NCBI RefSeq assembly: GCF_001652725.1
Contig: NZ_LWHJ01000011.1
Coordinates: 248,001 to 312,000, forward strand
Source: Pedobacter psychrophilus
GTDB lineage: Bacteria; Bacteroidota; Bacteroidia; Sphingobacteriales; Sphingobacteriaceae
Reading direction: 5' to 3'
DNA length: 64,000 nt
Position 1 is the first letter of the stretch. Each line of letters opens with the position of its first letter. This document shows, one piece after another, positions 32,249 to 46,453 of this stretch. A model generated the notes under the pieces. It saw only the letters and a list, made by a program, of their open reading frames with translations, was not told the origin of the DNA and ran no database searches. The position numbers and the translations under genes were made by a program.

Positions 32249-32405
32249 TTGGATAAATATTTAAACTTTACTTTTTTTTGAGTAACAAATATAACAAACT
32301 ATCATTTGTGAGATAAGTTTTAATATCCATTATAATCTTTATCTTTTTCTAATTAAGAAATAATACGAAATTAAAGATATATTTATCGCACATAATCAAA
32401 CCTTT

Positions 32406-34562
32406 ATGGCGAAAAAAATACAGCCTATATTACCTTATATGCGTTTTAAGTTTTTAGCGATTTTTATATTTAGTTGTCTTTTATTAGTTGCGTTATCATA
32501 TTTAGATTTACATGCACAAGTAAATAAAACTAATGTTAGCTATTTAAATAAACTAACATTAGAAATAACTAATAAAAACTACCCAGCAGCTAAAGCAATC
32601 TTAGTAAAAATCGATAGCAATGCATTTAAACCAAATCAGTTAGAAAGAGGTATCTATTATCAGCAATTGGCAAGGCTGGCATATTATGATACCTATGAAG
32701 ATGATAAAGCGGTTAATTATTATTACAAAGCAATTAAAGTCTATGAGTACAATAAATCAAATGAGGATACAGGAATTGCTTATTCTAATTTAGTGGGTGT
32801 TTTAACCGATTTAAAGCGATATAAAGAAGCAGAGTCAGCAATTAACAAATCAATTCCTTACGTAAAGAACGATAAAATAAGGTATGGTAATGCACTTATT
32901 AATTACTCTAGATTATTAGAAGCAATGGGTAATTACCCAAAAGCTATCTCATTAAGTTTACAAGCTTTAAAATTATACGAATCTTCTGGTGATATTGCTA
33001 AAATTGGTTCAGGTAACTATCAAACCGCATTAGTTTTAGAAACCGCTAAACAGTTTGATAAATCTATATTTTATTACAAAAAAGCTTTAGATATAAGAAA
33101 AGGAATTAAAGATTCTTTAGGGATGTCTAACGTGTATAATAATTTAGGCATCATTTATAAAAATCAGAAGCAGTACGATTTAGCTTTAGAAAGTTATAAA
33201 AATGCTTATGATTTAGCCACACAAATGAATAGACCTGTTTTAGGTTTAAACCCATTGATTAACATCGGGGTGGTTTATAACAAGCAAAATAAAAATACAT
33301 TAGCCATTAAAAAATATGAAGAAGCCTTAGTAATAGCCAATAAATTTAATAGAACAAACGCTATAAAAATTATAGAAACAAATTTGGCATTACTATACAT
33401 GAATGAAGAGCAATACGAAAAAGCTTTACCATTTGCACAAAAAGCCTATGATTACGGTATAAAAGAGGGTAGTATTGAAGAGAAAATGGCTTTCAACTAC
33501 AACCTAGCCGAGGTTTTGGATGGTTTAAATAGATCGAAAGAGGCATTTCCTTATATGCAAAATGCCATGAAATTAAAAGACTCTTTAAATAATAACGAAA
33601 GCAGTGAAAACATTGCAGAAATGCTAACCAAGTTTGAAACCGAGAAAAAAGAACAACAAATTAAGTTACTAGCCAAAGAGAATAGCCTGCAAAAACTGGG
33701 TTTAGAAAATCAAGAATTAACCTTAAACCAAAGAGCTTTAGAGTTAGATAATAGCCGCATCAATATCAATTTAAAAAATAAAGTAATAGAATCTCAAAAA
33801 TTCAAAACGGCTAAGCAAAGTCAGCAAATATTATTGTTAGCCAAAGACAAGGAAATTAAGGAGTTAGAAATTACTAAAAAAAATATATATCTGGCAGCTA
33901 CTTTTTTTACCATGTTGGTTTTAGGAGTATCGGGCTATCAGTTTTATAAAAAGCGGCAACTGAATGAAATAAATAGGATGCAAGAAGAAAAGCTTCGTAT
34001 ATCACAAGAATTACATGATAATATTGGTGCACAGCTAAGTTTTATCAATAGCTCTATAGGTACACTTTCGGCAAACGATAAAGAAAATATCCAATTAAAA
34101 GAAACCCAAGTTATTACCCAAAACACCATCAGAGAGTTACGTAGTACAGTTTGGTTAATTAATCAGCAAGAGTTTAGTTTAGATGAGTTTGTGGTTAAGC
34201 TTAGAGATTATGTAAAGCCTTTCCATACTGGTAAACCGCATATTAACATAACAGATGAAACTAGCGGGAATATAATTTTACAACCAAATTTGGCCACAAA
34301 TTTATTTAGGATTATACAAGAAGTGGTAAATAATGCCATAAAACATGCTGACGCTAGTTTGCTAACTATCGATTTTAAAAGCAATCATCAAGATTTAGAA
34401 TTACTGATTACTGATAATGGGAAGGGTTTTGATATTAATGAAAAAGCTAATGGTTATGGCTTAAAAAACATCAATGCGAGAATCCAAAATATTAAAGGAA
34501 CAATTCAAAATTCATCAAAAATTGGAGAAGGAACAAAGACTAAATTAAATGTCACAATTTAA
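32406..34562 (+). CDS. TPR sensor histidine kinase 1 (HisKA_3/NarX-like)
   Basis: 718 residues from ATG 32406; an ATG at 32439 would start directly at the signal peptide (MRFKFLAIFIFSCLLL). Residues ~45-400 carry about eight TPR repeats in the periplasm. A coiled coil (~400-490) and one membrane helix (~495-518) follow, then the DHp motif ISQELHDNIGAQLSF with phospho-accepting H537, and an HATPase domain (NNAIKHAD, DNGKGFD, GYGLKNINARI). It probably senses a cell-envelope signal via TPRs and phosphorylates the adjacent regulator at 36353. It is nearly fused to a paralogous kinase downstream. A degenerate ATACGAA half-site lies 25 bases upstream (32363-32380). Confidence 0.95.
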   Translation: MAKKIQPILPYMRFKFLAIFIFSCLLLVALSYLDLHAQVNKTNVSYLNKLTLEITNKNYPAAKAILVKIDSNAFKPNQLERGIYYQQLARLAYYDTYEDDKAVNYYYKAIKVYEYNKSNEDTGIAYSNLVGVLTDLKRYKEAESAINKSIPYVKNDKIRYGNALINYSRLLEAMGNYPKAISLSLQALKLYESSGDIAKIGSGNYQTALVLETAKQFDKSIFYYKKALDIRKGIKDSLGMSNVYNNLGIIYKNQKQYDLALESYKNAYDLATQMNRPVLGLNPLINIGVVYNKQNKNTLAIKKYEEALVIANKFNRTNAIKIIETNLALLYMNEEQYEKALPFAQKAYDYGIKEGSIEEKMAFNYNLAEVLDGLNRSKEAFPYMQNAMKLKDSLNNNESSENIAEMLTKFETEKKEQQIKLLAKENSLQKLGLENQELTLNQRALELDNSRININLKNKVIESQKFKTAKQSQQILLLAKDKEIKELEITKKNIYLAATFFTMLVLGVSGYQFYKKRQLNEINRMQEEKLRISQELHDNIGAQLSFINSSIGTLSANDKENIQLKETQVITQNTIRELRSTVWLINQQEFSLDEFVVKLRDYVKPFHTGKPHINITDETSGNIILQPNLATNLFRIIQEVVNNAIKHADASLLTIDFKSNHQDLELLITDNGKGFDINEKANGYGLKNINARIQNIKGTIQNSSKIGEGTKTKLNVTI

Positions 34563-34572
34563 TGTTAAAAAT

Positions 34573-36312
34573 ATGCGCTTAAATATTTTTATTGGATTTA
34601 CAATATTGCTCTTACTTAATAGCTATGTGTTTGCGCAAAAGAAATCTGTTAATGGTGATTTAAAAAAATTAAATGCTGTAGCTATTCAGCTAGTTAAAGA
34701 TGGCAAAAGTGTAGAAGCTATTTCTGTTTATCAAAATATTTTAAAATTAGCTACTGATAGTGGAATAGTGAAAGCTGAAACACTAAATGAGATTGGAAAT
34801 TTATATGCAGATATGGGCGAGAATCTAAAATCTTTAACATCGTATTTAGAGGGTTTGAAATTTGTGCCAGAAAACGATAATCTATTAAATGCAACCATTA
34901 ACAAAAATATTGGTGCACTTTACTTAAGCTGGAAAAAGCTAGATAATGCTTTAAAATATGATTTAATTGCCGAAGATTATGCCATTAAAGCAAAAGATGA
35001 AAGAATGATTGCCGATTTGGCTAACAATAAAGGTGCAGTGTACGAGCAAAAATTTCAGTTTGTTAAAGCCAATAGCAATTATAAAAAAGCATTAAAATAT
35101 TATCTGAATAATGGAATTAATGATAGGATTTGTTTAACCTATAACAACTTAGCAATTTTATCTAAGGTTCAAAAAGATTTCAATCAATCTGCAAATTATT
35201 ACCAAAAATCTGTTGATTACGCGGCAAAAGCCGATAGTAAATGGCTAACCGCTGCGATAGGGAATAATTTAGGAAATTTGCTTAGCGAAATGGGGCGTTA
35301 CAAAGAAGGTGATGCGGCTTTGTTAATTGCTTTAAAATTGGAACAAGAAATTAAAGCAGGCGAATTAATTCCGGAAACTTTAGAAAATTTAGTCAATAAC
35401 GAAACAAGAATAGGCAATTTTAAAAAGGCATTTGACTATATGAAGTTAATGATAACCGAAAAAGATAAATTTATTAATACAGAAAACACCAAAGAGGTAG
35501 CTCTCTTGCAAGAGCAATTTGAAGCGGTAAAAAAACAAAAACAAATTGAAATATTAAATAAAGAGGGGAAAATTCAGCAATTAACTTTAGTAAAAAGGAA
35601 CACAACAATAGGATTAATTATAGGTGCTTTTTTTGTATTTGTAATTATCAGTGTTCTCATATTTAGTAGGTATAAATTAAATCAAGAAAGTAAACTGAAA
35701 CTTGCAACAGCCGAAACAAAAAATCAAGTTCAAGAAGAAAAATTACGTATCTCTCAAGAATTACATGATAATATTGGGGCACAATTAAGTTTCATCAATA
35801 GTTCTATAAGTACATTATCCGCTATCGATAAAGAAAACATCCAATTAAAAGAAACCCAAACTATTACTCAAAATACCATCAGAGAATTACGAAGTACAGT
35901 TTGGTTAATTAATGGGCAAGAGTTTAGTTTAGATGAATTTGTAATAAAATTAAGAGACTATGTTAAACCTTACCATACTGGGAAGCCGCATATAACAATT
36001 GAAGATGAATTTGAAGGAAATGTGATTTTACAGCCAATTATAGCCACCAATTTATTTAGAATTATACAAGAAGTAGTAAATAATGCCATAAAATATGCCG
36101 ATGCTACTGCATTAAACATTTTATTCAGAAACAACTATGAAGATTTGGAATTATTGATTACCGATAATGGGAAGGGTTTTGATGTGAATACGAAAGCTAA
36201 TGGTTATGGCTTAAAAAATATCCATTCGAGAGTTCAAAACATTAACGGCAAACATCAAATAGAATCTAAAATAGGTGAGGGAACACAAGTGAAATTGAAT
36301 ATTCCGGTATAA
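34573..36312 (+). CDS. TPR sensor histidine kinase 2, tandem paralogue
   Basis: 579 residues from ATG 34573, which begins a proper signal peptide (MRLNIFIGFTILLLLNSYVFAQ); the alternative ATG at 34549 would overlap kinase 1 by 14 bases. TPR repeats cover ~30-300, then a membrane helix near 350-370 and the kinase core with LHDNIGAQLSFINSSISTL (His at codon 35764-35766) and HATPase motifs DNGKGFD and GYGLKNIHSRV. The kinase core is almost identical to that of kinase 1 whereas the TPR sensors differ, pointing to duplication followed by sensor divergence. Likely cotranscribed with kinase 1. Confidence 0.94.
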   Translation: MRLNIFIGFTILLLLNSYVFAQKKSVNGDLKKLNAVAIQLVKDGKSVEAISVYQNILKLATDSGIVKAETLNEIGNLYADMGENLKSLTSYLEGLKFVPENDNLLNATINKNIGALYLSWKKLDNALKYDLIAEDYAIKAKDERMIADLANNKGAVYEQKFQFVKANSNYKKALKYYLNNGINDRICLTYNNLAILSKVQKDFNQSANYYQKSVDYAAKADSKWLTAAIGNNLGNLLSEMGRYKEGDAALLIALKLEQEIKAGELIPETLENLVNNETRIGNFKKAFDYMKLMITEKDKFINTENTKEVALLQEQFEAVKKQKQIEILNKEGKIQQLTLVKRNTTIGLIIGAFFVFVIISVLIFSRYKLNQESKLKLATAETKNQVQEEKLRISQELHDNIGAQLSFINSSISTLSAIDKENIQLKETQTITQNTIRELRSTVWLINGQEFSLDEFVIKLRDYVKPYHTGKPHITIEDEFEGNVILQPIIATNLFRIIQEVVNNAIKYADATALNILFRNNYEDLELLITDNGKGFDVNTKANGYGLKNIHSRVQNINGKHQIESKIGEGTQVKLNIPV

Positions 36313-36329
36313 TACGCAGTTCATCGTAT
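36312..36329. promoter_or_regulatory. Operator-like inverted repeat O1, before response regulator
   Basis: ATACGCAGTTCATCGTAT, two arms around a central TT. The outer five bases of each arm match perfectly; the inner bases are imperfect. It lies 23 bases before the response-regulator start codon. See O2 and O3 for the same motif. Confidence 0.72.
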
Positions 36330-36352
36330 TTTATAAAATTAAAATAAGCAGC

Positions 36353-37018
36353 ATGTTTGATAAAAATATAAAATTGCCTGTAAACATTGCCATTGCCGAA
36401 GACAACAGCTTTGCTTTAAAAGCTTGTTTAGATAAACTTGCACCACATGCGGAGTTTAAGGTGGTAATGAATGCCTTTAACGGCGAAGAATTGCTTCAAA
36501 ATATCAATAAAAAACCTGTCGATTTAATTTTAATGGATATACAAATGCCTAGTATGAATGGCATTGATGCTACTCGATTAGTCAAACAAAATCATCCTCA
36601 TTTAAAAATTTTAATGCTCACTACTTTTGATGATGATGAAAATATTTTTAAAGCGATTATGGCTGGTGCAAACGGATATTTGTTAAAAGAAGAGAATTCG
36701 GACAACTTGCGCCAATCAATATTCGAAACTCTTTCTGGTGGTGCAGCAATGTCGGCAGGGGTGGCATTAAGGGTTTTGAATTTATTAAGAAATCCGCCAT
36801 CTCAGCATCAATCAAATGTGCAAGATTATGGTTTAACTAAAAGAGAAATTGAGCTACTTACCCAGCTTAAAAATGGTTTAAGTTATGAGCAGATTGCCAC
36901 TAACCTATACATAAGTTACGGCACAGTAAGAAAGCACATAGAAAATATATACCGCAAATTACAAGTAAATAATAAAGTAAATGCAATTGATGTTGCTACT
37001 AAAAACAGGTTGATTTAG
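36353..37018 (+). CDS. NarL/FixJ-type response regulator
   Basis: 221 residues. The receiver domain has acidic pocket residues E16/D17, phospho-acceptor D62 (LILMDIQMPSMNG) and the conserved Thr and Lys (MLTTFDDDE, GYLLKEE). The C-terminal LuxR-type HTH runs GLTKREIELLTQLKNGLSYEQIA to TVRKHIENIYRKLQ. It is the obvious partner of the two upstream HisKA_3-type kinases. It is preceded by operator-like repeat O1, and similar repeats precede two of the following genes, so it probably autoregulates and activates or represses them (inference). Confidence 0.95.
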   Translation: MFDKNIKLPVNIAIAEDNSFALKACLDKLAPHAEFKVVMNAFNGEELLQNINKKPVDLILMDIQMPSMNGIDATRLVKQNHPHLKILMLTTFDDDENIFKAIMAGANGYLLKEENSDNLRQSIFETLSGGAAMSAGVALRVLNLLRNPPSQHQSNVQDYGLTKREIELLTQLKNGLSYEQIATNLYISYGTVRKHIENIYRKLQVNNKVNAIDVATKNRLI

Positions 37019-37236
37019 TAGAGATAATCTTTAAGTTATTAGCTATATTTTAAATAAGGGTAATTTCATAGTGTTATCCTAACAATGGGTTGTTGATATT
37101 TAATTTAATAATTAAAGTCAAATCTTACTAAATTTTATAATAGCAACAGTCTTACAAAGAGTATAAAGAAGTGAACTAACACTCCTGATAATCTAACTTG
37201 CCTTTTCCCAATAGTTAATAACAATTTCTTTCAAAA

Positions 37237-37254
37237 ATACGAAGTTCTTCGTAT
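37237..37254. promoter_or_regulatory. Operator-like inverted repeat O2, before lipoprotein gene
   Basis: ATACGAAGTTCTTCGTAT: perfect 8-base arms around TT. It lies 53 bases before the lipoprotein ATG at 37308, and closely matches O1 and O3. Confidence 0.8.
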
Positions 37255-37307
37255 GGTTTAGCCTGTGTATTTCACCCAACTTTACACTATTAATTTAAAA
37301 ACACATC

Positions 37308-38294
37308 ATGAAAAAAACATTTTTTTATTTAGCTATCGCCAGCCTTTCATTTTTAGCATGTTCTAAAAGCGACGATTCAAATCCCTCAGTTTCTTCTGAA
37401 GAAAGTACGACTGTATTTTACACCGATACTTTTAACATTTACAGCACCGATTTAAAAGGTGGAAGTAGAAAATTAGTAACCAGCGAAGGGCCGAGTAATA
37501 GCACCAGCAACAACTATATTATTGCTACGGTTTATGTACCAACCTCAAATAGGCTAGCTTATATTTATACCGAAAAGTATGACCAACCTTTCTTTTTAAA
37601 AACTTGTAATTTAGACGGTAGCGATAAAAAAACAATCAAAACCTTCCCGGCATTTACACAAATTGGTTTATTAAAAGCAACAAGCGACGGACAAATTTTT
37701 TATACCCTCCCGGGAAAACCATTTCCTAACCAAACGCCTTCAAAAACCTTTTCTATAAAAGCAGATGGTACTGGAGAAACAGAAATTACCCAACAAGTTT
37801 ATGCTAGCACATCCGATCCTGATTTAATAAGCGCAGATGGTAAAGGAGTTTTACTCAACGGAGGTTATTTCGCTGTAATAGTTAACGGTACATTTGACGA
37901 GCGCAACAGTTTCAATGTTTTAACAAACGAAGAGAAAGACCAAACAAAAATCAAACAATTAAGCCTTTCTAACGATGCTTCTAAATTAACCTTCGCACAG
38001 AAGACTGCAACTGCTGGTCAGTACGAAATAAGGATAAAAAATGTAGTAAAAGATGCACCAACTTCAACTGTATTATACACTCTAAACATTCCTTCTGATG
38101 CAAGTGAATTCACACTGTCGCTAAAATTTGTTAATGGGACAAAAAACATTTTGGTAAGCTACGGCAAATTTACTTCACCAAAAGGCTCGGTAAATGATTA
38201 CACAAATTGTGATTTAATTGATGCTGTTAGCGGAAAAGTAACCAACACTTGGAAATTTATGGGCGACGAAATTTATAATCCGTTTACCAATTAA
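37308..38294 (+). CDS. Lipoprotein with TolB/WD40-like beta-propeller
   Basis: 328 residues with lipoprotein signal MKKTFFYLAIASLSFLAC. The mature part is made of repeating short beta blades with phrases like RLAYIYTEKYDQPFF, DGSDKKTIKTF, DGQIFYTLPG and NDASKLTFAQ, typical of TolB/YncE-like propellers. Function unknown; perhaps a surface-exposed binding protein. Operator O2 lies upstream and a second lipoprotein gene starts 40 bases downstream, so the two are probably cotranscribed under the adjacent two-component system. Confidence 0.75.
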   Translation: MKKTFFYLAIASLSFLACSKSDDSNPSVSSEESTTVFYTDTFNIYSTDLKGGSRKLVTSEGPSNSTSNNYIIATVYVPTSNRLAYIYTEKYDQPFFLKTCNLDGSDKKTIKTFPAFTQIGLLKATSDGQIFYTLPGKPFPNQTPSKTFSIKADGTGETEITQQVYASTSDPDLISADGKGVLLNGGYFAVIVNGTFDERNSFNVLTNEEKDQTKIKQLSLSNDASKLTFAQKTATAGQYEIRIKNVVKDAPTSTVLYTLNIPSDASEFTLSLKFVNGTKNILVSYGKFTSPKGSVNDYTNCDLIDAVSGKVTNTWKFMGDEIYNPFTN

Positions 38295-38334
38295 TCAGAA
38301 TGAAAAATAGTTATTCAACTTAACCAAAATAATC

Positions 38335-39099
38335 ATGAAAAATCAATTCAAAACTATGTTACTATTTGCGGCAGTATTATTTACAATAGGCTGTGCAAAA
38401 GACGAAGATACAACTACAACCGGTGGTGGAACTTCGGCACAATTATTAATAAAAACCACCTTTTGGAATCCGACATCGGGTGTAGAATCAACCTTTGAAG
38501 AAGTAACTTATGATAGCAAAGGTGCTTTTGAAAGTTTTAAAAGTGGAGGAAATACCACAACTGTAGAATTGAACGCTAACGCTACAATTGCTAAATTTTT
38601 AGTTAAAGCAGCAAATTACCCAGTAAACTCTCAATTACATGAAATCACTTACACTAACAATAAAGTAAGTAAAATTGTAACTACATTTTACCAACAAACA
38701 GGTGCCGTTAGTAATACCTTAACAAAAAATTACGAATACAATACAGCAGGAAAAATCTCTAAATTAAGTTTTGTAGATAGCTCTAGACCAACTGATACTT
38801 ACAATTATAACTACACTTGGACAGGCGATAACGTATCTAAAAAAGAATATTTATTTAACGGAAATGTGGCAAGTAGTCAGGAATATACTTACGATGATAA
38901 GAAAAATCCATACTATGAAGGAGGTATTTTTATGGATTATATTTATAGCAGAAATTACGATCCAATTTCTAAAAACAACCGCCTAACTGTAAAATCATCA
39001 TTTGGCACACAAACCACCACTTATACCTACAATGATGCTGGTTATCCTACCTCATCTAAACAAACGGCTGCAGAGGGGATTAAATATTATTACAAATAA
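38335..39099 (+). CDS. Lipoprotein with repeated YD-like beta strands
   Basis: 254 residues with lipoprotein signal MKNQFKTMLLFAAVLFTIGC. A Thr/Gly-rich linker follows, then repeating strands with Y-x-Y/N patterns (EITYTNNKVSKIVTTFYQ, KNYEYNTAGKISKLSF, NYTWTGDNVSKKEYLF, TTTYTYNDAGYPTSSK), akin to the RHS/YD-like repeats of Bacteroidota lipoproteins with DUF4595-like folds. Function unknown. Ends in a strong terminator at 39124-39161 and is probably cotranscribed with the propeller lipoprotein. Confidence 0.7.
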   Translation: MKNQFKTMLLFAAVLFTIGCAKDEDTTTTGGGTSAQLLIKTTFWNPTSGVESTFEEVTYDSKGAFESFKSGGNTTTVELNANATIAKFLVKAANYPVNSQLHEITYTNNKVSKIVTTFYQQTGAVSNTLTKNYEYNTAGKISKLSFVDSSRPTDTYNYNYTWTGDNVSKKEYLFNGNVASSQEYTYDDKKNPYYEGGIFMDYIYSRNYDPISKNNRLTVKSSFGTQTTTYTYNDAGYPTSSKQTAAEGIKYYYK

Positions 39100-39123
39100 A
39101 TAAAACTTAAATAAACAATTAAT

Positions 39124-39161
39124 ATGGGAAAATCTCTACCGGAGGTTTTCCCATTTTTTTT
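39124..39161 (+). terminator. Strong terminator after lipoprotein pair
   Basis: A 13-base stem with one G-T pair (39124-39136 with 39142-39154) over a five-base loop, followed by eight T. Confidence 0.9.
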
Positions 39162-39232
39162 GAAAATCAATGATATTAAATTTAAAAAGAAGTTCCTAAT
39201 CAGTTGTATTAAAGATTTAGGATAGTCGAAAA

Positions 39233-39250
39233 ATACGCAGTTCTGCGTAT
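39233..39250. promoter_or_regulatory. Operator-like inverted repeat O3, before T9SS protein gene
   Basis: ATACGCAGTTCTGCGTAT: perfect 8-base arms around TT. It lies 55 bases before the ATG at 39306, nearly the same distance as O2 from its gene. Confidence 0.82.
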
Positions 39251-39305
39251 GTTTTTAAAAGCTCATTTTATGTCTTTTTGATTCATCAATCAAAAAGAAA
39301 AAATC

Positions 39306-42300
39306 ATGAAAAAATTATTACTCTTATTCTTGTTTGCTGTGGTTATGGCATTAAGTACAAAAGCCCAAATTGGTGGCGGTTATGATAGCGCCTTTAACTT
39401 TGGTGGAGCAGGGGCAGAAGTTAAAGCATTAACTAAAACTACAAATGGAGATACTTATTTTGTAGTAACAATTTATGGGAGAGCGCTTTTTGCAGGACAA
39501 CAAATTGATGCTGGTGCTTTAGGTAGCTTCCCAAACATTAAAACCATTTTTTGTAAAGTAAGTAGTGATGGAACACAAACAATTTTAAGAGATATAGTGA
39601 ATGGAGGAACTGGCTTTTCAATCAATCAAAATGGAGAGTTATATTTCTTTATGACTGGTAGTAATTATCTTACAGCTGATTACGGAAATGGAATTACCAA
39701 CAATGCTTGGGGTACTTATTTAGTTAAGTTAAATAATGCGGGACTTGGGCAGTTTATTAAAAAAGTAAACACAGGCTCTAATGTTGAATATGGTAATAGC
39801 GGAATTGCTTTAGCTAATATTCAAGGAATGCAATTTACTCCAGATGGAAATTTATTTGTAACCATAGATGCTAATAATCAAACCACAGCTGTAGCTCCTG
39901 GCTATGTTTATCCTCATAGAATAATAAAATTTGATGCTAACGGAAATGAAGTATGGCATAATGATTTCTTTTCTAAAGCTTTACTTACTGGTTTTTCAAA
40001 ACCAGATCAATTTGTGAGTAATGATGGAAGCGTAAGTTTTTCTATCAACAACACTAGCAATCAGTTCTATTTTGACGGAGAGGAAATTTCTTCAAAAATG
40101 TCTAATTATGTAAATTCTCAGTATACCGTAGTTATTTCATTAAAACCGGATGGAACAAAAAAATTCATTATACCAGCTGCTGCCGGAATAACAGTATTAA
40201 CAGGAGTAAATCCAACCACAGGTGATTTATATATTGGCTATACCAACGGAAATGTTGGAGTAAAACCAATTAATGCACCATATACCAGTTTAATAAACCA
40301 ATATCCAGTAAATGCTTTTGGATATTATTTGTTTAACGGAACATTAACTTTCAATAGTTCAGGTGTTTTTCAAACTTATAATGCCCTTACATTTGATAAA
40401 TTGATTGCAACTACAAATGGTTTTATTGGTTTTGAAAAGGGTTTTGCAAGCACCATTATAGATAAAGGCGGAGATTATATTTTCTCAACCAATACAACAG
40501 AGGGAGTAATTTCTTATTATGATGCAGCTTTCAATTTTTTAAAAGCCATCAAAACACCAAGATTAACTGTTTTATCAGAAAATTTGGGAAAAACTTTGAT
40601 TGCTGGCGATTTTAAAGGAACGCTTTCTTTCGGTTCAACCACACTAACCCAAAGCTATAACGATACAGATTTTCAAACTCGTTTTCCAAGTTTTGCATCT
40701 ATCAAAGCAGATATTTTTATTGCTCAGGCAGATGTGAACAATATTACACCTCCATCACCAAACAATTGGGTAGGCGTTGATAACAATTGGAATAATACTG
40801 CTAATTGGAGTAAAGGAATAGTACCCGATGCAACTACTATTGTTAAATTTAATAGTACAACAGCAAATATGCCAACTACAGCAACATCGCCAACAGCTTT
40901 AAAAGTAATTATTGATGCTGGTGTTACTGCGCAATTGCCAAGCACATTGATTATTAAAAATAAACTAATTATTAATGGGACTTTACAGATAAATCATACT
41001 GGAACTTTAAATTTCACTAACTACTCGGCAACAGCCATAGAAGGAACAGGAACTTTAGCTTTTAACGGTACAACAACGCCAAGTGTAACGGCTTATAATT
41101 TAACAGGCTTTAAAGATTTAAGTCTATCAACCAATGAGAATATCACTTTAGCCGGGATATGGAAAAATATTACATTTACAGGTACAAATGCAATTATAAC
41201 TGCATCAGGCGGGATTGAAATTACCAATCCAGATGTAAATGCAATAAGTGGACAAAGTGCTGCAAATTATATTGCCGGTAAAATTACTAGGGCGGTAAAT
41301 GCTAATGGTATTTATGTTTTTCCAAATACACAATTTGCTTATCTACAATCGGAACCCACAATAATAAGTTTAAACAATTTAACTGGCACAACCAAAATTA
41401 CAGTAGCAAACGATAATAGTCCCACTGCTCCAAATGTGAATTTTGCATCTGGAACTACAACATCAGTATTAGGAGATTACTATTGGAGAATAACACCCGA
41501 TTTTGCTCCTACTAGTGGAAGTTATGATGTTACATTCTCTAAGTCGGCTTTTACAAATGGTGTTACGGACGCTGATAGATATGTGGTTTTAAAACGTATA
41601 GCAAACGGCAATCCTTGGACTTTTGAAGGGACAAAGTCTGCTTCTACTCAAATTGGTGGAACAACAAGTGGGCAAACAGTAAGCAATGCAACAGTAACAG
41701 CAGGCATAACTGGTTTAAGCAAATTTTCTGATTTTGTAATTGGTATCAATTCAACAGCTGTGGCAACTAATACAACAATTACCACTTCTACATGGACAGG
41801 TGCTAATAACACAGCTTGGAATAATATCGCAAATTGGAGTAACGGTGTGCCAAATGCAACAATTGACGCAATAATACCTTCTGGTTTAACTAATTATCCT
41901 TTAATATATACAGCTACAGATAATGCTCGTTCTCTAACGATTAATTCGGGAATAACTGGTTTAAAATTACACTCAGAATTAATACTTACAAATGGATTAA
42001 TTAACAATAGTAATATTGAAATAGCAAAATTAGTTGGCTTTAATACAACTTTTAATGGATATGGAGGCGGTATCAGCGGAAGCGGGAAATTAAGATTTGA
42101 AACAACTGGTGGTTTAGTAAATACAATAGCAGGATTGGTAAATAACGATGTGGAGATTAATATTGGAAATTCAAATTCATTTAATTTATTAGGGAAATTT
42201 GGAGGCAATATTAATATAGTTTCTGGTTTATTAAATGCTTGGAGCACTGGTTCAAATTATTTAGAACAAACTAATCCAAATGCCACAATTCAAATTACTG

Positions 42301-44315
42301 CACCTATTAATAGTATTGCCGCAGAAAAACTCTCAAAAAGTGTAAATACAACAGGCACTTATATTTTTCCTTTGGGCGATTTTCAATACCATAGATTGGG
42401 AACAAGAAAATATGGTGATATCAGTATTACTAATAATAATATCAGCGCAGTTTCTGTATACAGTATAAAATTTGATTCTTACGCTACATCACCGGTTTCA
42501 CTTACCATTGGTTCTGATGTTTATCCGTCTTTCATAAATTCTGGGCAATGGTCTATTGAACCAAGTGTTTTTTCTGCAACCGGTACTGTAGATGTAACTT
42601 TTAAAACAGCTAACTATACAAATGGAAGGGTAAACACAAGTGATTATGTTTTAATGAGAAGAGCATCAACCGCAACAAATGGAACAACTACTTGGGTTAT
42701 AGTTTCTGGCGCAAACATTACAGAAAATGCTGGTATTATTACTGCTTCGGCAACAGCTATAGCGCCTTTTTCTACTAATACCATGTTCTGTATCGCTTTA
42801 AAAGCAACCACAACAACTTGGTTAGGTTTAACAAACAATTGGAATACATCAAGCAATTGGAGTAATGGTGTGCCTAGTGCAGCTGTAAAGGCGATAATTG
42901 CTAATGCTAATATATATCCAAACAATGCCCCAACAAGTGGAAGTGCTGCTGCAGCTATCGAAATAGCATCCGGTTCGACCCTAACTTTACCAGCTGGTTT
43001 TTATACGCCAAATGGTATTATCAATAATGGCACAATCAACATCAGCGGAAGCGGAACATTCTATGGTTTTGGTTCTGGCAGTACTTACAGTAATATTACT
43101 GGAACAGGGACTTTGGTTTTTGGTACTGGTATTACAACTTTTGATTCTGCTTTTATAGGTCAAACAGTAAATAATAGTATCGAAGTAAATAATGCAGCAG
43201 TTTTAACTGTGACAAGAACAACCACTTTTGCAGGAAATGTTACTTTAACAAATGGAGTGGTAACGATGGGATCTAGTCAAAACTTTATCATGAGCAACCC
43301 AAATGCAAGTATGACAGGCACTTCAACATCTTACATTATTGGTAACTTAAAACGCATAGTGAACTCAAGTGGTATTTATAATTTCCCGGTAGGTAAAACA
43401 GGTTATTATGCCCCAGCGAGTTTAACATTAACTGGCTTAGTAGGTACAACTGATATTTCTGCTTTTTTCTCTAATGCCGCAATAAGTGGCCAACCTAATT
43501 TAACCATTAGCGGTCAAACTGTAAATAGTATATTAAGCGGCGGGAGCTGGTTTATAACACCAAATATACAACCAACTGGGGGTAATTACAGCGTTTCGCT
43601 AAATGCACCAATAGGTTCTTCTGTGGCAAATAACTTTTATGTTCTTAAGCGTACTGATAACAATAGTTTCTATCAATGGGCAAATCAAGGTACAAATGTT
43701 GTCTCTACTATAACAGCAGGAATTGTAACTGCATCTGCAACAGGGATTACCAGTTTCTCTCAGTTTGGAATAGGCGAAGGTTTTGGAACACTTCCTGTTA
43801 AATTGGTTAAGTTTTTGGCTTCCGCCGATGCTAAAACCGCTAGACTATATTGGGAAACAGCAAGTGAATTAAACAACGATAAATTTGAGATTGAGCGCAG
43901 TAGTAACGGAACCGATTTTATAAAAATAGGAGAGCTTAAAGGAAACGGAACTTCTCAAAAATTAAACACTTACAGCTTTAAAGATTTTAGCCCTATAAAT
44001 GGAGTTAATTATTACCGCTTAAAACAAGTAGATTTTAATGGAGCAATTGAATACAGTGATATTAAGTTTGTAAGTTTTGATATTAAGGAAACAACTTTTA
44101 GCGTTTACCCAAACCCTGTCTCAGATTTCATCAATTTTAGTGAGTCGGTAAAATCTGTAGAAATGTATAATCTGCAAGGTGCGAAGGTGTTCCAACAAAA
44201 TACAACCACAAGCAGTATTAAAATACCCTCAGAAATTAATAATGGAGTTTACATCATAAAAGCAACTTTGTTAAACGATTCTTCAATCTCTAAACAAATA
44301 TTGATAAACAAATAA
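39306..44315 (+). CDS. Large T9SS cargo protein (type A sorting domain) with three tandem modules
   Basis: 1669 residues with a signal peptide (LFAVVMALSTKAQ/I) and a C-terminal type A T9SS sorting domain (FSVYPNPVSDFINF to KQILINK), so it is exported by the Bacteroidota type IX system to the surface or medium. Residues ~25-470 look like a beta-propeller with SBBP-like phrases (KFDANGNEVWHN). Then come three modules of about 345 residues, each opening with an NWNNTANWSKG-type motif (near residues 483, 828, 1171) and containing a YIxGKxxRxVNxxGxYxFP segment. Likely an adhesin or glycan-interacting surface protein. Its operator O3 ties it to the adjacent two-component system. Confidence 0.88.
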   Translation: MKKLLLLFLFAVVMALSTKAQIGGGYDSAFNFGGAGAEVKALTKTTNGDTYFVVTIYGRALFAGQQIDAGALGSFPNIKTIFCKVSSDGTQTILRDIVNGGTGFSINQNGELYFFMTGSNYLTADYGNGITNNAWGTYLVKLNNAGLGQFIKKVNTGSNVEYGNSGIALANIQGMQFTPDGNLFVTIDANNQTTAVAPGYVYPHRIIKFDANGNEVWHNDFFSKALLTGFSKPDQFVSNDGSVSFSINNTSNQFYFDGEEISSKMSNYVNSQYTVVISLKPDGTKKFIIPAAAGITVLTGVNPTTGDLYIGYTNGNVGVKPINAPYTSLINQYPVNAFGYYLFNGTLTFNSSGVFQTYNALTFDKLIATTNGFIGFEKGFASTIIDKGGDYIFSTNTTEGVISYYDAAFNFLKAIKTPRLTVLSENLGKTLIAGDFKGTLSFGSTTLTQSYNDTDFQTRFPSFASIKADIFIAQADVNNITPPSPNNWVGVDNNWNNTANWSKGIVPDATTIVKFNSTTANMPTTATSPTALKVIIDAGVTAQLPSTLIIKNKLIINGTLQINHTGTLNFTNYSATAIEGTGTLAFNGTTTPSVTAYNLTGFKDLSLSTNENITLAGIWKNITFTGTNAIITASGGIEITNPDVNAISGQSAANYIAGKITRAVNANGIYVFPNTQFAYLQSEPTIISLNNLTGTTKITVANDNSPTAPNVNFASGTTTSVLGDYYWRITPDFAPTSGSYDVTFSKSAFTNGVTDADRYVVLKRIANGNPWTFEGTKSASTQIGGTTSGQTVSNATVTAGITGLSKFSDFVIGINSTAVATNTTITTSTWTGANNTAWNNIANWSNGVPNATIDAIIPSGLTNYPLIYTATDNARSLTINSGITGLKLHSELILTNGLINNSNIEIAKLVGFNTTFNGYGGGISGSGKLRFETTGGLVNTIAGLVNNDVEINIGNSNSFNLLGKFGGNINIVSGLLNAWSTGSNYLEQTNPNATIQITAPINSIAAEKLSKSVNTTGTYIFPLGDFQYHRLGTRKYGDISITNNNISAVSVYSIKFDSYATSPVSLTIGSDVYPSFINSGQWSIEPSVFSATGTVDVTFKTANYTNGRVNTSDYVLMRRASTATNGTTTWVIVSGANITENAGIITASATAIAPFSTNTMFCIALKATTTTWLGLTNNWNTSSNWSNGVPSAAVKAIIANANIYPNNAPTSGSAAAAIEIASGSTLTLPAGFYTPNGIINNGTINISGSGTFYGFGSGSTYSNITGTGTLVFGTGITTFDSAFIGQTVNNSIEVNNAAVLTVTRTTTFAGNVTLTNGVVTMGSSQNFIMSNPNASMTGTSTSYIIGNLKRIVNSSGIYNFPVGKTGYYAPASLTLTGLVGTTDISAFFSNAAISGQPNLTISGQTVNSILSGGSWFITPNIQPTGGNYSVSLNAPIGSSVANNFYVLKRTDNNSFYQWANQGTNVVSTITAGIVTASATGITSFSQFGIGEGFGTLPVKLVKFLASADAKTARLYWETASELNNDKFEIERSSNGTDFIKIGELKGNGTSQKLNTYSFKDFSPINGVNYYRLKQVDFNGAIEYSDIKFVSFDIKETTFSVYPNPVSDFINFSESVKSVEMYNLQGAKVFQQNTTTSSIKIPSEINNGVYIIKATLLNDSSISKQILINK

Positions 44316-44476: not shown

Positions 44477-46453
44477 ATGATGATTAGATTTTTTAAATCC
44501 AAGTATATATATTTCGTATTTGCAATTTTTCTTTTTACCCAAAAGTCTTATCCTGTTTTAGCTTTTCAAAAAACCGATATCAAAGATTCCATTAAATTAG
44601 ATAAGTATTTATCTTTTTTAAAAGGGATAAAGCCTGAAAATGTGGATAGTATGATTAGTGTTGTAAACGTTGCATTGCTGGATTTTAAGAAACAAAATGA
44701 TAGTTATAATCTTACTCAAATCAATAAGAATGCAGGTTTTATTTTATTGCGATATGGTTATTTAAATCTTGCTGAAAAATATTATAATGATGCCTTAAGT
44801 TTATCAAAAAGTTTAAATAATAAAAAGCTAGAGGCAGAAATTACTAATTCTCTAGGGGTTTTGTGGGGTAAAAAAGGGGATTTTCTTAAAGCCGAATCAT
44901 TATTTTTAAAAGCATTGTTAATTGCCAAACAAGATAACAATCCTAAAGAAAAAGTATCTTCTTATTTAAAATTAGGAACCCTTCGTATAAAACAAAATAA
45001 ACCAGACCAAGCATTAGATTTTTATTTAAAGGCTGACTCTGTTAATCAAAAAAATAAAACTAACTTTTTGAGTGAGGACTTAATAGCTAATAAAGCTATT
45101 GTATATGCAATTAAAGGAGAATTAGATAAAGCTTTAAAGCAATTTCAAATAGGTTATCAATCGGCTTTTGATGATAAGCGACCTATGGATCAAGTTTTAG
45201 CCCTGCAAAATATAGCCCTGGTTTATAAAGAAAAAGGTGATTTTCAAAATGCATTAAAAAATTTAGAAACCGGAATTGAACTATCAAAAAAGAACGGATT
45301 AAAGGAGGAAGAGCTTAGGATTTCTATCAATGTCCCCTCAGTCTTATTTGATCAGAAAAAATATAAACTGGCCGAAACTCAGCTTTTAATCTTATTAGAA
45401 AAAACTAAAAAATTAGAGCTAGAAGATTTAGAAATAGAAATATACAATGCTTTGGTAGAAACTTCTAAGGCTCAAAATGATTATAAATCTGCACTTAGCT
45501 ACTTTGAAAATAGTTCGCAATTAATAAATAAAGCAATTGACGTCCAGAAACAAAGAGCGTTAGCAGAAGCAAATGCTAGTTTAGGATTATACAAAGCGAA
45601 AGCCGAAATTTTGGAGAGTAAAAACCTATTGTTTCAGAAAACAAGGGAGAAAAACATTATTCTAGGTGTTTTAATATTTATTGCTGTTTTATCTGTGGTT
45701 TTGATTTTGGTTTTAATAAGGTTAAAAGTATTTAATGATAGACTAAATATCAATAAAACTGAACTTACCGAAAGTAATAATATTAAGAATAAACTATTCT
45801 CTATTATTGGTCATGATTTGAGAGGAGCATATGGTACAACATTAGGTATATTAAATTTAATTAAAGATGGTGAGCTAGAGCAAGAAGAAGAACAGAAGTA
45901 TTTAGATTTGATTATAAAACAGTCTACATCTTCATTGGCAACTTTAGATGATTTGTTATTATGGGGCCAAGCTCAAATTAAAGGGAATAAATTAAGTAAG
46001 GTTAAGGTTTCTGTTTTGCAGGAAGTTGATAAAGGCATTAGCCTGAATTTAGAAGCGATAAGCGAAAAACATTTATCATTAAATAAGATTGATTTAGATG
46101 AAAAAAATGTTTTTATAGATGCTAATCACTTTGCTTTTATCATTAGAAACTTAATTGCAAACGCCATAAAGTTTACACCCAAAAACGGAGAAATAAAAAT
46201 CTATGCTGATGATTATGATGTAAATTTAGTGAAAATATGTGTGGCTGATAATGGTATCGGAATTTCAAATGAAGATTTAAAAAGTGTTTTTTTGCCTGAT
46301 AGCAAAAGCAGGAGAGGAACAAGTAATGAGAAAGGAACTGGTTTAGGTTTAACACTTTGCCATGAATTTATAACAGCAAATGGAGGTAAGATTTGGGCCG
46401 AACAAAATGCTGAGCAAGGAACAATAATTTGTTTTACTTGTCAAAAAGGATAA
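44477..46453 (+). CDS. TPR sensor histidine kinase, HisKA class (orphan)
   Basis: 658 residues with a signal sequence (MMIRFFKSKYIYFVFAIFL...). About seven TPR repeats cover residues ~60-370, with a membrane helix at ~395-415 and a conventional HisKA DHp (SIIGHDLRGAYGTTLG, His446) and HATPase domain (NAIKFTPKNGEIKI, DNGIGIS, GTGLGLTLCHEFI). No response regulator adjoins it, so its partner is elsewhere. Its kinase class differs from that of the two kinases at 32.4-36.3 kb, so it is not simply a third paralogue despite the TPR sensor. Confidence 0.93.
   Translation: MMIRFFKSKYIYFVFAIFLFTQKSYPVLAFQKTDIKDSIKLDKYLSFLKGIKPENVDSMISVVNVALLDFKKQNDSYNLTQINKNAGFILLRYGYLNLAEKYYNDALSLSKSLNNKKLEAEITNSLGVLWGKKGDFLKAESLFLKALLIAKQDNNPKEKVSSYLKLGTLRIKQNKPDQALDFYLKADSVNQKNKTNFLSEDLIANKAIVYAIKGELDKALKQFQIGYQSAFDDKRPMDQVLALQNIALVYKEKGDFQNALKNLETGIELSKKNGLKEEELRISINVPSVLFDQKKYKLAETQLLILLEKTKKLELEDLEIEIYNALVETSKAQNDYKSALSYFENSSQLINKAIDVQKQRALAEANASLGLYKAKAEILESKNLLFQKTREKNIILGVLIFIAVLSVVLILVLIRLKVFNDRLNINKTELTESNNIKNKLFSIIGHDLRGAYGTTLGILNLIKDGELEQEEEQKYLDLIIKQSTSSLATLDDLLLWGQAQIKGNKLSKVKVSVLQEVDKGISLNLEAISEKHLSLNKIDLDEKNVFIDANHFAFIIRNLIANAIKFTPKNGEIKIYADDYDVNLVKICVADNGIGISNEDLKSVFLPDSKSRRGTSNEKGTGLGLTLCHEFITANGGKIWAEQNAEQGTIICFTCQKG

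Follow-up and report, generated by a model that had tools for sequence, protein, structure and literature searches.

A conserved NarL-type operator at a fixed distance from the Bacteroidota -7 box points to an autoregulated secreted-protein regulon in Pedobacter psychrophilus

The stretch of DNA analyzed here (64,000 nucleotides of Pedobacter psychrophilus, contig NZ_LWHJ01000011.1, positions 248,001 to 312,000 of the forward strand; hereafter, the window) encodes two sensor histidine kinases with tetratricopeptide repeats (TPR), a NarL/LuxR-type response regulator, two lipoproteins and a cargo protein of the type IX secretion system (T9SS). Three 18-bp palindromic operators in this locus, their fixed spacing to the promoter -7 box, their co-occurrence with the regulator across genomes, their conservation at the regulator gene and the signal peptides of their target proteins, all read directly from the DNA, point to an autoregulated two-component system, in which the regulator would act as a class II activator of its own gene and of a small set of genes for secreted proteins and lipoproteins. 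We estimate the probability of this reading at about 0.87. The regulatory circuit as such is real and well conserved, representing a NarL-type two-component regulon whose operator and promoter geometry are unusually clear. The operators and their -7 boxes are as follows:

36312..36329, + strand: operator 1, ATACGCAGTTCATCGTAT, beginning on the final base of the kinase 2 stop codon and preceding the regulator gene
36352..36359, + strand: -7 box CATGTTTG (consensus TANNTTTG), 22 bp past operator 1; predicted +1 at 36364
37237..37254, + strand: operator 2, ATACGAAGTTCTTCGTAT, upstream of the lipoprotein gene at 37308
37277..37284, + strand: -7 box CAACTTTA, 22 bp past operator 2; predicted +1 at 37289
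39233..39250, + strand: operator 3, ATACGCAGTTCTGCGTAT, upstream of the T9SS cargo gene at 39306
39273..39280, + strand: -7 box TCTTTTTG, 22 bp past operator 3; predicted +1 at 39285

A preliminary description of the locus had reported 18-mer palindromes at 36312, 37237 and 39233, and all three are found exactly there; the reported distances of 53 and 55 bases to the start codons of the lipoprotein and cargo genes are also correct. The window contains 6 matches with at most three mismatches (these three places, on both strands) vs. 0.29 in dinucleotide-preserving shuffles, and in the whole 4.0 Mb genome the sequence TACGMAGTTCTKCGTA occurs with at most one mismatch at these three places only. 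A degenerate half-site (ATACGAAATTAAAGATAT) that had been proposed at 32363, before kinase 1, retains only one half of the palindrome and is absent from a relaxed scan allowing up to four mismatches with a -7 box at +22; for these reasons it is not accepted as an operator.

Use of the regulator as a query against genome contigs yielded 79 loci. In all five loci with the closest orthologs (66-81% identity; Pedobacter, Pelobium and metagenome-assembled genomes), a related palindrome is located between the kinase stop codon and the regulator, and further sites precede orthologs of the lipoprotein and T9SS cargo genes of the window or genes for other secreted proteins. The position of operator 1 is kept in the orthologous loci L019-L023 as well as in more distant relatives. 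The conserved operator core is ATACGNA-N4-TNCGTAT, with 17 exact + strand copies vs. an expectation of 0.04 over 1.46 Mb of regulator neighbourhoods. Its TAC-N10-GTA frame is identical to that of the E. coli NarL site, a 16-bp inverted sequence in a 7-2-7 arrangement (e.g., TACCCCTAAAGGGGTA; PMC4549865) built of heptamers TACYYMT (PMC4886647), and therefore the NarL-type geometry suggested in the preliminary description was right. That description had also divided the sites into heptamers TACGMAG with a TT spacer; the 7-2-7 frame stands, while the fixed TT spacer and the inner G/C do not, the four inner bases (GTTC in the window sites) being not conserved among orthologs. This sequence would suit a regulator dimer bound to inverted heptamers in the 7-2-7 arrangement. 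Since in one-mismatch scans of the bare motif within the genus the reversed control matched as often, only exact or box-coupled sites were counted.

The second line of evidence is the coupling of the operator to the Bacteroidota promoter, whose -7 box, TANNTTTG, spans -12 to -5 (PMC6847099). For 121 site-orientations, the pattern ANNTTTR was counted at each offset between 0 and 69, with sites picked without regard to the box. It occurs at offset 22 in 48/121 of them, as compared with a mean of 0.9 at other offsets; every palindrome was counted in both directions and, therefore, 48/121 means a box on one side at most sites. Counted from the -7 box, the operator spans approximately -52 to -35 and is centered at -43.5, close to the NarL 7-2-7 sites of napF (-40 to -49) and yeaR (-38 to -47), i.e., near -44 (PMC4549865). 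A site adjoining the -33/-35 region with a constant spacing to the -7 box, as expected of a class II promoter, is thus found here (22 bp), and a center near -43.5 is the position from which a class II activator would be predicted to act.

The third line of evidence is the co-occurrence of operator and regulator at the level of genus, family and class. Within the genus, exact operators are present in 8/8 genomes with the regulator (at least 50% identity) and in 0/10 without it (Fisher p = 2e-5). The family sample of 301 genomes includes 16 with the regulator (E ≤ 1e-55), 17 with an operator plus box and 12 with both (p = 1e-14), and its 39 operator-plus-box matches compare with 7 for the reversed-pattern control. 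Among 247 genomes of the class sample, the respective numbers are 26, 27 and 16 (p = 8e-12), with several sites directly adjoining the regulator gene (e.g., in G493, G522, G489, G422 and G481); all these p values overstate independence because the samples include related genomes. Both a random scatter of the motif and its absence from relatives that keep the regulator were looked for, and the assignment of the operator to the regulator survived. Where the operator precedes the regulator, the recognition helix ISYGTVRKH is paired with A at operator base 7 in 11/11 cases, and the helix ISP[SPKR]TVRKH mostly with C (e.g., ATACGACAATTGACGTAT), a pairing that fits a regulator which itself reads the operator.

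Autoregulation, already suggested in the preliminary description, agrees with the conservation of the operator at the regulator gene. Upstream regions were collected for regulators of 44% identity or more; of the 98 that are non-redundant, 43 have an operator-like palindrome with a box at spacing 22, and any other spacing from 14 to 31 accounts for at most 4. Examples outside the family include loci of Lutibacter, Draconibacterium and Flavobacteriales. Given this frequency (43/98), positive autoregulation, driven by a promoter in the gap between the kinase and regulator genes, looks ancient. In the loci L019:10483-12563 and L020:10705-12786, a second kinase (457 aa, with a different sensor) and a second regulator (~70% identical) are located behind the first pair, and each second regulator has its own autoregulatory operator. 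Regulator orthologs of Algoriphagus (L024-L026, L028-L030, L034, L059, L077 and L082; 53-57% identity) have no recognizable operator at the regulator gene, where it may have diverged or moved. A regulator homolog at L173 (G487:C23:18185-18820) with two in-frame stop codons is probably a decayed copy.

The same promoter bears on the start codon of the regulator. Operator 1 does precede the regulator, as proposed, at 23 bases from the apparent start, ATG 36353. This ATG falls inside the -7 box (36352-36359), and in L020, L021 and L022 the ATG is located 44 bases past the operator, at the place of TTG 36374 in the window. The ATG lies clear of the box in G004, G005, G007 and several distant relatives, and the protein starts at the same place there too. 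Because the ortholog ATGs align with TTG 36374, we interpret the conserved ATGTTTG as the -7 box and TTG 36374, 44 bases past the operator, as the probable true start.

The genes of the locus, all on the + strand, are:

32406..34562, + strand: TPR sensor histidine kinase 1, 718 aa (Pfam TPR_12, HisKA_3, HATPase_c)
34549..36312, + strand: TPR sensor histidine kinase 2, 587 aa (Pfam, hydropathy, motifs)
36374..37018 (probable start; apparent open reading frame from ATG 36353), + strand: NarL/LuxR-type response regulator (Pfam Response_reg, GerE)
37308..38294, + strand: lipoprotein with a LACS lipobox; orthologs in L019 and L020 are likewise preceded by an operator
38335..39099, + strand: second small lipoprotein (no Pfam family above threshold)
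39306..44315, + strand: secreted protein of 1669 aa carrying a C-terminal T9SS sorting domain (Pfam Por_Secre_tail); orthologs in L020 and L021

Both kinases contain HisKA_3 with an HD motif and HATPase_c (Pfam and motif check). In kinase 1, a membrane/signal segment at the N-terminus is followed by the TPR array, HisKA_3 (ELHDNIGAQL) and HATPase_c, with His, N and G boxes found and a second membrane segment scoring below the applied hydropathy cut-off. Kinase 2, whose start overlaps kinase 1 by 14 bases, has its TPR array flanked by two membrane segments (hydropathy); the TPR families and these segments place the array on the N-terminal, exported side. The regulator combines an N-terminal receiver domain (Response_reg, E = 1.1e-25; DLILMD motif with the phosphoacceptor Asp) with a C-terminal helix-turn-helix (GerE, E = 3.3e-16), and VraR aligns with it end to end. 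For the 37308 lipoprotein, which has a weak Pfam match only, a beta-propeller fold is possible; it is left unconfirmed by a structure model with a mean pLDDT (predicted local distance difference test) of 44 built from three sequences only. The 38335 lipoprotein gene is probably co-transcribed with it. Directly 3' of the T9SS cargo gene (44477-46453), a third TPR protein with HATPase_c is encoded, a probable histidine kinase of another type, with no operator upstream.

Genome-wide, five promoters combine an operator with a box at no more than one mismatch; matches with 2 mismatches, the next best, are at the control level. They precede the regulator gene, the 37308 gene (with 38335), the 39306 gene and two remote targets:

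C28:112518: promoter of a 185-aa lipoprotein gene
C29:50392: promoter of a gene for a 126-aa secreted protein, followed by genes for 610-aa and 476-aa secreted proteins

Operator linkage of the 126-aa target is seen in G000, G006 and G016; that of the 185-aa lipoprotein, in G000 and, beside the regulator, in L023. This recurrence across genomes supports real regulation. Signal-peptide-like N-termini (by a crude rule) are present in 29/31 non-regulator targets vs. 76/175 background open reading frames, and the target families are otherwise unlike (PQQ_2-domain, MORN-repeat and DUF6252 proteins, and others without an assigned family). Three tandem paralogous secreted proteins at L027:2538-6018, one of them checked and found to contain MORN repeats, each have their own operator and 22-bp-spaced -7 box. 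An exact operator ~10 kb upstream of the window (L146:3844, G000:C11:237843) was left out of the regulon because its weak box is at +21 and no clear gene follows. The proposal in the preliminary description that a system of two TPR histidine kinases controls adjacent surface genes is supported. Its characterization as self-contained and dedicated to a surface adhesin finds no support in that form, in view of the two high-confidence promoters on other contigs and the other secreted targets of relatives. Since the targets are secreted yet otherwise unlike, the circuit is better described as a small secreted-protein regulon than as a one-adhesin system; the T9SS cargo protein may nevertheless function as an adhesin.

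In the mechanism that we propose, the TPR kinases would sense an envelope or extracellular cue and, judging by protein family and gene order, both would phosphorylate the single NarL/LuxR-type regulator. The phosphorylated dimer would bind the 18-bp operator in a NarL-like 7-2-7 manner, as its sequence suggests, and, acting as a class II activator centered near -43.5, bring in RNA polymerase. Class II recruitment is proposed because the operator ends at the would-be -33 element, exactly 22 bp before the -7 box. Activation of the regulator's own gene from the promoter between kinase 2 and the regulator would create a self-reinforcing switch, and activation would extend to the lipoprotein pair, the T9SS cargo gene and at least two remote operons, with a putative role in surface attachment.

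Several observations weigh against this reading. The -7 box of operator 3 (TCTTTTTG) has one mismatch to TANNTTTG. About half of the regulator upstream regions, including nearly all from Algoriphagus, are without a recognizable operator at the 22-bp spacing. Five composite matches of the family sample belong to genomes without the regulator, about the level predicted by the 7 reversed-control matches. Many loci are orthologous and, hence, their counts are not independent; likewise, the link between helix and operator follows phylogeny, and it was counted without tree correction.

Among other explanations, binding of the regulator as a repressor, so that autoregulation would be negative and a signal would derepress the surface genes, appears unlikely. 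NarL acts as a repressor at some promoters, from 7-2-7 sites close to the transcription start (PMC4549865), but the operator described here is placed at a fixed distance, on one side only, immediately before the -7 box and ends at ~-35, as in class II activation, whereas repressor sites are usually variable in position; moreover, a -33 TTTG was not evident on sequence inspection of the window promoters. We regard as very improbable that another transcription factor, co-travelling with the regulator gene, binds the operator, with the two-component system as no more than one target among others. The five family-sample sites in genomes without the regulator would suit such a factor, as would the sequence-based nature of the regulator-site link; this has to be set against the strong co-occurrence at three taxonomic levels, the lack of exact sites in close relatives lacking the regulator, the variation of operator base 7 with the regulator's own recognition helix, the separate sites of the duplicated L019/L020 regulators and the NarL-type 7-2-7 frame. 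A function of the inverted repeats as RNA hairpins (terminators, attenuators or processing sites) might be imagined for the first of them, located in a kinase-regulator gap that could be transcribed; however, positions from -52 to -35 are upstream of the predicted start and outside the mRNA, the 22-bp box coupling and the NarL frame are features of DNA, and operators also precede isolated remote genes, which makes this explanation extremely improbable. Finally, an origin of the sites by chance or as a palindromic repeat of a mobile or selfish kind, suggested by three copies in 3 kb, can practically be dismissed in view of the shuffled and reversed-pattern controls, the spacing and co-occurrence statistics, the presence of only five high-confidence copies genome-wide (all promoter-placed) and flanks unrelated except for the spaced -7 box.

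Overall, the interpretation as a class II activator regulon adds to the preliminary description the 22-bp coupling to the -7 box, class-wide conservation and a probable correction of the regulator start codon. To our knowledge, operators have been described for very few response regulators of Bacteroidota. The present one is readable from sequence alone, tracks its regulator across the class and sets an activator geometry for the unusual Bacteroidota promoter, with its -7 box TANNTTTG and weak -33 element. As a result, TPR-kinase regulons become predictable in many environmental and host-associated genomes, the helix/base-7 pairs offer a ready test set for recognition-helix specificity, and a sequence handle is provided on the targets of FimS-like TPR sensors. 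In addition, annotations of this regulator family can contain mis-called start codons where an ATG overlaps the -7 box. No description of the operator was found in the literature searched, and its novelty is provisional, subscription papers being outside the search; the main text of the Flavobacterium psychrophilum promoter map does not mention LuxR regulators or palindromes.

The VraSR/LiaSR and DesKR systems share with the window HisKA_3 kinases paired with NarL-family regulators, and the best solved-structure matches are VraR for the regulator and VraS and DesK for the kinase ATPase domain; these systems are Gram-positive, are not known to have a TPR sensor and use other operators. E. coli NarX/NarL shares the receiver and GerE/LuxR helix-turn-helix, the TAC-N10-GTA site and its location near -44 at activated promoters; the window system differs in its heptamer (TACGNAN vs. 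TACYYMT in NarL), the Bacteroidota -7 box, TPR instead of nitrate sensors and a small secreted-protein regulon. PorX/PorY-SigP exerts two-component control of T9SS component genes via the extracytoplasmic function sigma factor SigP (PMC4800418); a two-component link to T9SS-dependent surface proteins in Bacteroidota is shared, whereas the T9SS cargo gene of the window is apparently under direct control of a NarL-type regulator. The closest known system and nearest functional parallel is FimS/FimR of P. gingivalis. In FimS, two membrane helices flank a periplasmic TPR domain, with an unknown signal (PMC11053733), and FimR directly binds the mfa1 and pg2130 promoters, activating mfa1 and, via pg2130, fimA (PMC1974823). 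For FimR, that paper offers no operator consensus, whereas operator and promoter spacing are defined for the window system. FimS/FimR controls FimA/Mfa1 fimbriae, whereas the window system has two kinases and targets lipoproteins and a T9SS cargo protein, with no fimbrillin family detected by Pfam among the window targets and representative targets scanned. A tentative broader view, which we consider somewhat less than an even bet, is that of an ancestral, class-wide, self-activating TPR-kinase/NarL-type regulon of Bacteroidia with a single kind of operator at the 22-bp spacing and lineage-specific secreted surface targets, in which the recognition helix would have co-evolved with operator base 7 from one sub-clade to another and FimS/FimR would represent a specialized branch.

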